Assembly (NCBI GenBank): GCA_003153555.1
Contig: PLZS01000130.1
Location: 1-64,000 of the forward strand
Source: Candidatus Melainabacteria bacterium
GTDB lineage: Bacteria > Cyanobacteriota > Vampirovibrionia > Obscuribacterales > Obscuribacteraceae
DNA: 64,000 nucleotides
Reading direction: 5' to 3'
Shown here: one piece after another, positions 15,318 through 34,174 of the stretch
Numbering within the stretch: the stretch's first letter is position 1
Layout of the letters: the number at the start of each line of letters is the position of its first letter
Position numbers and translations under genes: made by a program
Notes under the pieces: generated by a model
Seen by the model: only the letters and a program-made list of their open reading frames with translations
Databases searched by the model: none
Told to the model about the DNA's origin: nothing

Positions 15318-15383
15318 AGATGCCAGGAAGGATTCTTGCGCTCCGGGTTAGATGCCGGCAAGGATGCCGGCGCTCCCAGGTTA
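15318..15383. repeat. Two tandem REP-like palindromic copies
   Basis: Copies at about 15318-15349 (degraded) and 15351-15383 share the order GATGCC..GGAAGGAT / GATGCCGGCAAGGATGCC followed by GCGCTCC and GGTTA. Inverted GCCGGC segments make a small hairpin. The same GCCGGCGCTCC core recurs at 29.2 and 34.1 kb. A further degraded copy may precede it (15291-15312). Confidence 0.7.
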
Positions 15384-27585: not shown

Positions 27586-28128
27586 ATGACTAAAAAGGAT
27601 GAAGAAATCCAGCGCAAGTTAGAAGAGCTGGAGTCCGCTGTTTTGAGAGAGACACCGACGCCATCTCAACAACATTTGACGTCGCCCCAGAAATCGACTG
27701 ACCTAATATCACTCGAAAAGAAGCAGCTTCCTACCACGCCGGTCCAAAACGATCTGCTGTATTTTGGCGGCATCGGTTTAATTCTCACTGGTCTGTTCAT
27801 GTTCTTCAACCACGTCAGAATAAGCTCCGGATTCATGGGCATGCTGGGCTTGGGCGGTGGCGGTTTTGGACTTTTATTTATTCCGTTGATGATTGGCATC
27901 GGTTGGATGATTTATGATTCGAAGAACAAGATTGCCTGGATGTTAGTCACCGGAACTTGCGTGCTCATAATTGTTTCAGTGCTAAGCAGCTTGGTTATGA
28001 ATTTCCCGCAAATGACTTTGCTTGGAATGATCTTCATGCTCCTGCCTTTCGCGGCTGGTGGTGCCATGCTACTTAAAGGAATGGGCGGACCTAAAGCAAT
28101 CGAGCAGAAGTTTAAGAAGATCGAATGA
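27586..28128 (+). CDS. Small integral membrane protein, function unknown
   Basis: The start at ATG 27586 has GAGG four bases upstream. The first 55 residues are hydrophilic and helical (EIQRKLEELESAVL), then four membrane helices follow (DLLYFGGIGLILTGLFMFF, LGGGGFGLLFIPLMIGIGW, MLVTGTCVLIIVSVLSSLV, LLGMIFMLLPFAAGGAML). The second hairpin contains a Gly-rich turn (GLGGGGFG). The C-terminus is basic. I do not recognise a family. The stop overlaps the FadJ-like start by ATGA, indicating coupled translation in the nadE operon. Confidence 0.65.
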   Translation: MTKKDEEIQRKLEELESAVLRETPTPSQQHLTSPQKSTDLISLEKKQLPTTPVQNDLLYFGGIGLILTGLFMFFNHVRISSGFMGMLGLGGGGFGLLFIPLMIGIGWMIYDSKNKIAWMLVTGTCVLIIVSVLSSLVMNFPQMTLLGMIFMLLPFAAGGAMLLKGMGGPKAIEQKFKKIE

Positions 28129-30317
28129 TCAGCAACAAGTCCGACGGCACTGAAGGCTCGCAAGCTTGGAAAAGTAAAGCGACTCTGCAGCACATCATTG
28201 TTCGAAAAAAAAGATCCGGCGTTGCCTTTTTGTTTCTTGATTCTCCCGGTAAACAGAATTTTCTCAGGGCCGAAGTTATCGATGAGTTGAGTCTCGCGAT
28301 CACCGAAGTGGCAGACGACCCCGACGTTAAAGCGATGGTCGTCATCTCCGGCAAAGCGGATACATTCGTAACAGGAGCCGACTTACACGAGATCATGCGG
28401 TTCTCGAACAAAATGGACGGATTGAAGTTATCGCGACATGGACACAAAGTTTTCGCCGCCCTAGCTAATTTTAAAAGACCAACGGTGGCAGCCATCAATG
28501 GCGTCTGCCTCGGAGGCGGGCTTGAATTGGTTCTATGTTGTGACCGCAGGGTGGCTACCGACGCACTAATTACGGTACTAGGTCTACCGGAAGTAAGACA
28601 TGGAATCGTGCCGGGATTTGGTGGCACACAGCGATTGCCAAGGCAAATAGGCGTCCGCAATGCTTTAGAAATTATTCTCGGCGGAGAGCTCGTAGATGCG
28701 CATCGCGCGCTAGATATGAACATAGTCGATCAGATAGTGCCAGCTGATAATTTGATGCAACGCGCCGAACAACTGGCGCTAGAGTTGTTGGAAATTCCAT
28801 TAGGCGACAGAAAAATAGTCGCTCCAGAATTAGACGCTGAGAAGCTAAGCAAGTTGTTTTCCATTTGTGAACGCTCGGTGCGGATCAAAACAAAGGGCAG
28901 ATATCCAGCTCAGCTGCGAGTACTGGAGGTGATGAAGACTGGTCTGATAGAGGGAATGGAAGCGGGAATAGAGGCAGAAATAACAACATTCGCTGAACTT
29001 TCAGTAAGTGAAGTGGCTCGAAACCTTATCTTCTTATTTTTCTCAAGAGAGTTAGCAAAACAAACTGCCGCGATTGCCAGTCGTCATTCCAATATTCGCT
29101 TGAACGCCGTCTCCATAGTTGGATTGGAGCGCCGGCTTCCAGCCGGCACCGAACCTGGTAACAAAGGCTTTAATCCCGCGTCGAGCTCAGACGTAAACAC
29201 CATCGAAGCCGGCAAGATGCCGGCGCTCCCAGGTGGCACACTAGCCAAATTAGCAATCGCGCATGGACTAGACGTTTCTTTCATTGAAACTAACGAACAC
29301 ACGCACACTGCACTTCGGACCAATTCAAACATCCTAAAAGCCGATCTAATTATCGAATCCACCACCGAAGACAAAGACACCAAACTCAAAATCCTGTCGA
29401 CCATGGCAACGGTGATGAAACCAGATGCGGTGCTCGTAACAGTTACATCTTCTCTTTCAATCGCCGAACTGGCCACATCCATTCCCAACAAGCAAAACTT
29501 CATTGGCATGCAATTGATTCATCCAATAGACAAAATGCCTCTTGCTGAATTGATTCCCCATCCAGACACAAGCAAATTTGCAACAGCGCAAGCAACAAAG
29601 TTCGTCAACAAAATCGGAAAGTTATCTGCGTGCGTTCATGATAGTCCGGGATTTTTATTGAACAGAATCTTGACAGTGTATCTCCAGCAAGCGGCACGGA
29701 TGGCTGAAAGCGGCATCCCGGTGAATTGGCTGGAACAGTCCGCCATTAATTTTGGAATGCCGATGGGTCCATTTTCCGTACTCGATGAAATTGGTTTGGA
29801 TCTGGCACAGACAGTTGCAACTGTCCTAAGCGAAAAGCTTGGCGATAGGTTTAAGGTTCCCAATTCTTTGTCCAAAGCATTAAGCGCGGGTATGATCGGA
29901 CGCGAGAATGGCTGTGGAGCTTACGTTTGGCACGAGGACAAGAAACTCGAACTGAACATTGATCTCCAAACAAAAGTAGGTTTCCTCATTTCCGAAAGTA
30001 GTTTGCCTCCTGAACAATCAACGAAAATCGCCCATGCGATGATACTGCCTATGGTGGACGAAGCATCTCGATGTCTTGATGAAAGGGTAGTGCGGCGTGC
30101 TCGAGAAATTGATCTTTGCATGGTCATGGGCATCGGATTCCCGTCGTTCAGGGGAGGACTGCTGCGCTATGCCGACAGCCTTGGCATTAAACAAATCATT
30201 GACGAAATTCAAGAAATTTATATACAAACCACCCCAGCACACCATATAAGCGATTACCTTAAGAGGCTAGTGCAGGAGAATCGAGGTTTTTACTCGCGAG
30301 CGATGGAACAGAACTAG
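28125..30317 (+). CDS. FadJ/FadB-like protein: intact enoyl-CoA hydratase, degenerate 3-hydroxyacyl-CoA dehydrogenase
   Basis: The N-terminal 300 residues are crotonase-fold: the oxyanion-hole segment GADLHEI, then GGGLELVLCCD and LGLPEVRHGIVPGFGGTQRL, which keep both catalytic Glu residues. The C-terminal part aligns with 3-hydroxyacyl-CoA dehydrogenase, but three key places are changed: the NAD loop after VSIVG is split by about 36 foreign residues, the catalytic His of the G(M/L)HFFNP motif is Gln (GMQLIHP), and NTS is VTS. The Asn in DSPGFLLNRIL is kept. It probably hydrates enoyl-CoA but may not oxidise. The insertion comes from a REPIN-like element (29126-29234). It lies in the nadE operon with ATGA coupling. 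Confidence 0.85.
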   Translation: MISNKSDGTEGSQAWKSKATLQHIIVRKKRSGVAFLFLDSPGKQNFLRAEVIDELSLAITEVADDPDVKAMVVISGKADTFVTGADLHEIMRFSNKMDGLKLSRHGHKVFAALANFKRPTVAAINGVCLGGGLELVLCCDRRVATDALITVLGLPEVRHGIVPGFGGTQRLPRQIGVRNALEIILGGELVDAHRALDMNIVDQIVPADNLMQRAEQLALELLEIPLGDRKIVAPELDAEKLSKLFSICERSVRIKTKGRYPAQLRVLEVMKTGLIEGMEAGIEAEITTFAELSVSEVARNLIFLFFSRELAKQTAAIASRHSNIRLNAVSIVGLERRLPAGTEPGNKGFNPASSSDVNTIEAGKMPALPGGTLAKLAIAHGLDVSFIETNEHTHTALRTNSNILKADLIIESTTEDKDTKLKILSTMATVMKPDAVLVTVTSSLSIAELATSIPNKQNFIGMQLIHPIDKMPLAELIPHPDTSKFATAQATKFVNKIGKLSACVHDSPGFLLNRILTVYLQQAARMAESGIPVNWLEQSAINFGMPMGPFSVLDEIGLDLAQTVATVLSEKLGDRFKVPNSLSKALSAGMIGRENGCGAYVWHEDKKLELNIDLQTKVGFLISESSLPPEQSTKIAHAMILPMVDEASRCLDERVVRRAREIDLCMVMGIGFPSFRGGLLRYADSLGIKQIIDEIQEIYIQTTPAHHISDYLKRLVQENRGFYSRAMEQN
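29126..29234. repeat. REPIN-like inverted REP doublet inserted in frame in the FadJ-like gene
   Basis: Left copy 29126-29158 starts GGAGCGCCGGCTTCC; right copy 29205-29234 ends GATGCCGGCGCTCCCAGG. The two are in inverted order around a 46-bp core and would fold as a long hairpin. Length is about 109 bp, near 36 codons, without a stop, adding residues about 335-370 including AGKMPALPGG. Confidence 0.75.
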
Positions 30318-30319
30318 AG

Positions 30320-30964
30320 ATGCCGAGGCTATTCATAGGAACATTCCTGAGCCTGGATGACCAGCAGAAACTTTCAGTTCTGCAGTCTGACAACGAGCAT
30401 TTAGAAAGTCTCTGGGAGCGAAAGCCGCGCTGGGTTAAGCCAGTAAAGTTGCACATCACTTGGCTGTTCTTAGGTTCTGTTGAGCAAAATCTCGTTGCCA
30501 AGTTGAGCTCGACTCTGCACAAGGTAATCTACGAACGAAATAAGATGCAGAACGACGAAGATCGCAAAGATTTGGTCATGGAATTCACGAAGCCTGAGGT
30601 GTGGCCAAATTCACGCAAGCCGCGGCTAATAGTAGTCGCCAATAAACCAATTCCAAGAGCCGTTGAATCGCTGGCTCGGACGATCCGGACAGGTTTGATT
30701 CCCTTCTATACTGCCCAAACCGAACAAGAACACAACCAGGATTTCAAACCCCATGTAACCTTGATGCGGCTGGACAGGCGCATTGAAACGCCAGCTGATA
30801 AGCTCGCCTTTGATCGGGTTGAAATCCGGGTCGATCCAGCTGCAATTAATTCTCTTGACGAGGCGCTGCCCATCAAGCTGAAGGTTGATGACGTCTGCCT
30901 GGTAGAAAGTAACGTGAACGGGAACGACTACAAGATTTTGGACACCGTCCGACTGCGCGATTAA
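30320..30964 (+). CDS. thpR: RNA 2',3'-cyclic phosphodiesterase (LigT/2H family)
   Basis: The 214-residue protein carries the two His-x-Thr/Ser motifs of the 2H phosphoesterase superfamily: HITWLFLG near residue 50 and HVTLMRL near 150. The first RLFIGTFL segment is also typical of ThpR/LigT. Members hydrolyse 2',3'-cyclic phosphates at RNA ends. The start at ATG 30320 is two bases after the upstream stop. It is longer than usual by about 20 residues because of an insertion between the motifs. It ends the nadE operon. Confidence 0.9.
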   Translation: MPRLFIGTFLSLDDQQKLSVLQSDNEHLESLWERKPRWVKPVKLHITWLFLGSVEQNLVAKLSSTLHKVIYERNKMQNDEDRKDLVMEFTKPEVWPNSRKPRLIVVANKPIPRAVESLARTIRTGLIPFYTAQTEQEHNQDFKPHVTLMRLDRRIETPADKLAFDRVEIRVDPAAINSLDEALPIKLKVDDVCLVESNVNGNDYKILDTVRLRD

Positions 30965-34144: not shown

Positions 34145-34174
34145 CCAGGTTCGGCTGGAAGCCGGCGCTCCCAG
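34145..34174. repeat. Single REP-like copy downstream of mnmA
   Basis: CCAGGTTCGGCTGGAAGCC followed by GGCGCTCCCAG matches the reverse complement of the left REPIN arm at 29126-29158, four bases shorter. It directly abuts the mnmA stop and could act as its terminator-like hairpin. Confidence 0.65.

Follow-up and report, generated by a model that had tools for sequence, protein, structure and literature searches.

Both the presence of REPs inside ORFs and the existence of in-frame palindromes in Rickettsia are already established (PMC3733652, PMC10969869). GTAG/CGTC REPs lying inside ORFs are short palindromes, many of them dimers, which are translated within known proteins, and dimers or grouped REPs code for 20 to 30 amino acids (PMC3733652). 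As for the multifunctional enzymes of fatty acid oxidation, the NAD-binding domain C of rat peroxisomal MFE1 swings on a hinge, domains D and E pack tightly, and linker helix B touches domain E as well as the hydratase ligand (PMC5715344, PMC10988713); the residue roles of the catalytic Glu pair in the rat enzyme are also described (PMC5715344).

Here we report a FadJ-like gene from a genus of uncultured, non-photosynthetic relatives of cyanobacteria; in one species, a pair of inverted REPs is inserted in frame in its NAD-binding loop. Comparison of orthologous sequences makes it quite probable that dehydrogenase catalysis was lost in the ancestor of the genus, that domain C has since been decaying in two different ways, and that the hydratase body has been kept.

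Results

Identity and gene setting of the FadJ-like ORF

The DNA analyzed is a 64,000-nucleotide stretch (hereafter the window). It carries, at positions 28125..30317 of the plus strand, a 730-residue ORF which is open throughout and matches the Pfam families ECH_1, 3HCDH_N (partially) and 3HCDH. The best NCBIfam match is FadJ, but it lies below the equivalog cut-off (NF008363/TIGR02440: 518.2 vs 869 and 465.9 vs 968 bits), and we thus refer to the ORF as FadJ-like rather than FadJ. Its closest solved structures are the alpha subunits of the E. coli fatty acid oxidation complex (phmmer, 6ysv, 3.9e-109). The hydratase (crotonase) domain A spans residues 21-225 (28185..28799; PF00378, 9.1e-41) and retains both catalytic Glu residues, as claimed in a preliminary description of the locus: Glu134 in the motif GGGLE (28524..28526) and Glu156 in the motif LGLPE (28590..28592), which are equivalent by motif position to Glu103 and Glu123 of rat MFE1, respectively. 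It is followed by the linker helices of the domain B region (residues 226-328; 28800..29108), a degenerate NAD-binding domain C (residues 329-508; 29109..29648), in which PF02737 covers only model positions 75-179 of 180, and conserved C-terminal domains D/E (residues 509-726; 29649..30302; PF00725, 8.4e-23). An Rfam search at this locus returned no match, and an AlphaFold2 model based on a two-sequence alignment was discarded (mean pLDDT of 33).

The gene is tightly packed between two other plus-strand ORFs. The stop codon of a small membrane-protein-like ORF (27586..28128) overlaps the FadJ-like start by 4 nt, and a ThpR-like ORF (2'-5' RNA ligase-like, by eye; 30320..30964) begins 2 nt past the FadJ-like stop. 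Further neighbors, also assigned by eye, are an NAD synthase upstream of the small membrane protein and a response regulator downstream of the ThpR-like protein. Gene order is common to the window's own genome (G000), two congeners (G001 and G002) and a sister outside the genus (G015), except that the NAD synthase is not among the ORFs listed at the G015 locus.

An in-frame pair of inverted REPs in the NAD loop

Directly after VSIVG (residues 329-333; 29109-29123), the ORF contains a 36-codon in-frame insert (residues 334-369; 29124..29231, plus strand), which in the ortholog alignment takes the place of some four GxGxMG-loop residues, so that the GxGxxG NAD loop is displaced. The inserted peptide reads LERRLPAG...EAGKMPALP, and GTLAKLA picks up again at residue 371. 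Relative to the G015 ortholog (L043), the insert replaces the AGLM of GAGLMG, for a net gain of about 32 codons. It contains two REPs in inverted orientation: REP1, GAGCGCCGGCTTCCAGCCGGC, at 29127..29147 (+), which lacks the usual CCTGG in front and folds into an RNA hairpin of -13.5 kcal/mol, and REP2, GAGCGCCGGCATCTTGCCGGC, at 29208..29228 (-), which has the full CCTGG tag, also folds into a hairpin, and reads EAGKMPALP on the coding strand. RNA folding of the whole insert yields one long hairpin (z = -4.0). Of its six reading frames, the insert is stop-free in two: the one used, which is the sole open forward frame, and one on the minus strand.

These REPs belong to a genuine dispersed palindrome family. 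The pattern GAGCGCCGGCNTCNNGCCGGC has 34 exact copies in the genome, and 50 copies when up to two mismatches are allowed; about 0.0001 copies are expected from the base composition of the window, and a reversed-pattern control in the same genome yielded none. Thirty-two distinct copies share the consensus CCTGGGAGCGCCGGC...GCCGGCA(T/C)C, REP1 being the exception without CCTGG. Neither GTAG nor CGTC is found at the end of the repeat, whose consensus starts CCTGGGAGCGC. The window holds another copy with one extra base at 15369 (-) and a decayed copy at 34164 (-). Exact copies are absent from both congeners, and their number in other genera of the family ranges from none to 366. The latter figure, in G028, compared with 0 for most members of the family, points to a strong lineage-specific spread.

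Elsewhere in the genome, REPs in long ORFs are located in tails, in low-complexity stretches outside Pfam domains, or before probable start codons. For example, REP-encoded peptides occur within ORFs for a CAP-domain protein, ScpB and a GNAT acetyltransferase (L061, L074 and L070, respectively), outside the Pfam domains. Of the 30 loci examined, the FadJ-like gene alone has a folded domain whose core contains REPs.

The preliminary description had recognized some 36 residues derived from a REP doublet directly after VSIVG in the dinucleotide-binding loop, which agrees with our results, and had called the insert a REPIN, a label that is only partly supported. An inverted pair is indeed present. 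Yet no other convergent pair exists among exact REP copies, which are otherwise single or in direct arrays, and the spacer has no second occurrence in the genome, so that the doublet is not the repeated unit; moreover, no full-length RAYT was found in the G000 MAG, but only an IS200-like gene and fragments. For these reasons, we use the name inverted REP pair. In related genomes, the same REP core occurs twice at a distance of about 130 nt from a RAYT-like ORF of G024 (L109:971-1845), and a RAYT of G028 (L110) is flanked by the REP variant GGAGCGCGGACGTCTCGTCCGC.

Lesions are confined to the NAD-binding domain

We compared the ORF with its orthologs in an alignment of about 40 sequences, including orthologs lacking the insert, as had been suggested in the preliminary description. 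The catalytic His is replaced by Gln463 (CAA; 29511..29513, plus strand), as stated there, and the partner Glu475 is retained. The same Gln is found in all three genus members, while the other aligned orthologs covering the site have His. The GxGxM loop, too, is missing from the three genus members, whereas almost every full-length ortholog from outside the genus in the alignment, that of G015 among them, retains loop and catalytic His. G001 and G002 have no insert, and the stretch from beta1 to beta4 of their NAD domain is deleted. The N-terminal side of the Pfam 3HCDH_N match is cut off in G000, G001 and G002, while positions 1-179 are matched in G015. H450Q is reportedly among the mutants tested in a 1996 paper on His450 of FadB.

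The preliminary description also noted VTS in place of NTS. This motif is present (residues 440-442; 29442..29450, plus strand), but it is not diagnostic: the Asn is Ile or Gly in G004, G021, G026, G028 and G065 (L019, L018, L020, L023 and L095, respectively), all of which have an intact His and GxGxMG loop. We thus dropped it as evidence of dehydrogenase loss.

To compare domains, near-invariant sites were defined outside the genus, and those altered or gapped in each genus member were counted. In the NAD domain, 10 of 17 sites are affected in G001, 9 of 17 in G002, and 3 of 17 in G000, the last being a low count because the aligner matches the G and M of the repeat to the motif. By contrast, the hydratase domain has none of 33 sites affected in G000 and G001 and one in G002, the linker none of seven in any of them, and D/E one of 24 in each (a common L to I change). 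The excess in the NAD domain over the hydratase domain is significant in all three genomes (Fisher tests, p = 0.03 for G000, 2e-6 for G001 and 8e-5 for G002); for G000 alone, the NAD domain does not differ significantly from D/E (p = 0.29). Lesions are thus confined to the NAD domain. All three genus members, at about 60% identity, preserve the open frame, both hydratase Glu residues, codon bias and synteny. Codon position 3 is the most divergent and position 2 the least in every domain, including the NAD remnant, which may still have some role given this codon constraint.

Other irregularities were observed in this gene family. In G002 (L040, 3649-5685, minus strand), a short in-frame repeat, DTSLKHETSLKQEAS, lies between hydratase and linker. 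The reading frame of the G019 ortholog (L042:5500-5666) continues into three other palindromes at the border between linker and NAD domain, where the contig stops. The contig of the G005 ortholog (L041) also stops at this border.

Discussion

Order of events

In a phylogeny from which the NAD domain was left out, UFBoot support is 100 both for the grouping of G001 with G002 and for that of the genus with G015. The genus accounts for 11.6% of tree length in the NAD domain, against 6.4% in the hydratase and 7.3% in D/E; within the genus, no domain evolves faster than the NAD remnant, whereas in most other pairs it ranks among the slowest. As the congeners are devoid of the REP and yet share the Gln and lack the half of the domain bearing GxGxMG, the loss of the active site is most simply placed in the ancestor of the genus, with the REP entering later, in one lineage only. 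This parsimony argument is based on three genus genomes, all of which are MAGs (86.6-95% complete), and independent His-to-Gln changes within the genus may have occurred. The results support the earlier proposal that dehydrogenase function was lost before or with the insertion.

We suggest the following scenario. The starting point would be a solitary, bifunctional enzyme of the FadJ type. 3-hydroxyacyl-CoA dehydrogenase catalysis would have been lost in the genus ancestor (through the His to Gln change, according to parsimony), after which the full structure of domain C would no longer have been maintained. In the lineage of G001 and G002, the beta1-beta4 half would have been deleted. In G000, a short REP array would have entered the loop between beta1 and the helix, displacing the glycine-rich NAD-pyrophosphate motif, and would have been retained because it stays in frame. 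The remainder would have been kept as an enoyl-CoA hydratase on a structural body that comprises linker helix B and the close-packed domains D and E besides domain A. The lesion pattern fits the anatomy of MFE1, where the hinged domain C and the tight D/E pair suggest that C can degenerate without the loss of A, B, D and E. The predicted product is a hydratase with a single activity, and the next oxidation step would most likely be carried out by free-standing 3-hydroxyacyl-CoA dehydrogenases. Three of these, with intact loop, NTS and His, were read in the G000 genome, which also encodes thiolases. The insertion, the substitutions and deletions, their confinement to domain C, the conservation of the other parts and the synteny are seen directly in the sequences; from them, we infer that dehydrogenase activity was lost, that hydratase activity was retained, that the events took the above order, and that the free-standing enzymes compensate.

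A broader proposal, which we regard as rather doubtful, is that the genus has made a monofunctional hydratase of the form A-B-(C remnant)-D-E by dropping only the NAD-binding domain, with D/E under selection, and that inactive domains are landing sites tolerating in-frame palindromes. The palindromes of G019 at the same domain border may be cited alongside this proposal.

Alternative explanations

The loss of a catalytic residue, a core motif hit by deletion or by a repeat, and a faster-evolving NAD domain could all be found in a decaying pseudogene whose frame is open by luck. This is very unlikely for the gene as a whole, because three congeneric sequences keep the frame, both Glu residues, 32-33 of the 33 hydratase sites and 23 of the 24 D/E sites, with codon constraint in all domains. 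It is also very unlikely that translational coupling within a compact operon, and not enzyme function, is the sole reason for the open frame: the 4-nt overlap upstream, the 2-nt gap downstream and the conserved order agree with coupling, but they do not account for hydratase and D/E sites being so strictly conserved. Coupling may nonetheless add to selection for in-frame inserts. An assembly error at the repeat seems hardly credible. Although the MAG comprises 208 contigs and repeats cause misjoins, the segments on either side of the insert belong to a single gene, share its frame and lie in a conserved gene order, the insert measures about 108 nt, its spacer has no other copy in the genome, and both the His to Gln change and the short loop after beta2 are independent of it.

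Two other alternatives concern the insert and the dehydrogenase. The position of the insert, exactly in the NAD-pyrophosphate loop, would be expected if the REP had come first and had itself killed the dehydrogenase, His changing to Gln afterwards. However, Gln is present and the REP family absent in both congeners, and this order of events, which we consider very unlikely, requires either independent His losses or deletion of the REP in the ancestor of the congeners. Finally, the dehydrogenase could still be active, with the REP-encoded EAGKM serving as a substitute glycine loop, as AGKM resembles AGLM and aligners pair them. We give this idea almost no credence: GxGxxG does not regain its first or last Gly, Gln stands at the position of the catalytic His, and the loop is entirely absent from the congeners. 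As REP2 is a canonical repeat, we put the likeness between AGKM and AGLM down to chance and rejected it. Loss of dehydrogenase catalysis in the genus ancestor, followed by decay of domain C, is the explanation we favor.

Significance and comparison with known systems

The locus documents an order of events within one clade, in which loss of a catalytic residue would have been followed by structural decay, through deletion and through insertion of a selfish repeat. It offers a natural test of whether the hydratase of FadB/FadJ/MFE1 enzymes needs domains D/E irrespective of NAD binding. It also calls for caution, as repeat-encoded peptides such as AGKMPALPG get into protein databases within real enzymes.

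Among palindromic repeats, Pseudomonas REPINs (PMC3116915) likewise consist of two inverted REPs and a spacer, but here there is one convergent exact pair only, the spacer is not shared and the genome yielded no full-length RAYT. GTAG/CGTC REPs differ by their tag, which is CCTGGGAGCGC here, and the present insert lies midway in a folded motif of a domain that was probably already inactive. The palindromic elements of Rickettsia (RPE; reviewed in PMC10969869) are likewise selfish palindromes that have entered metabolic genes in frame; the repeat is different here, an RPE-type peptide family is not part of the case, and the host domain was already degenerate.

As for the enzyme, a free-text literature search retrieved no published FadB pseudo-dehydrogenase. 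Rat peroxisomal MFE1 has the same five-domain plan (PMC5715344, PMC10988713), but it retains His431 and NAD binding. The FadJ/FadB alpha subunits (E. coli FadJ, 6ysv and 8bnr; P. fragi, 1wdk) share the domain order, the hydratase Glu pair and D/E with the present ORF, in which, however, the GxGxMG loop is gone, the catalytic His is Gln and the NAD domain is shortened. In addition, unlike in the FadJ/FadB complex, the ORF is solitary, with no adjoining thiolase in the sequence read. Compared with these systems, the newer part is a natural A-B-(C remnant)-D-E enzyme, from a clade that is dismantling a probably inactive domain by two routes while the rest is under selection.
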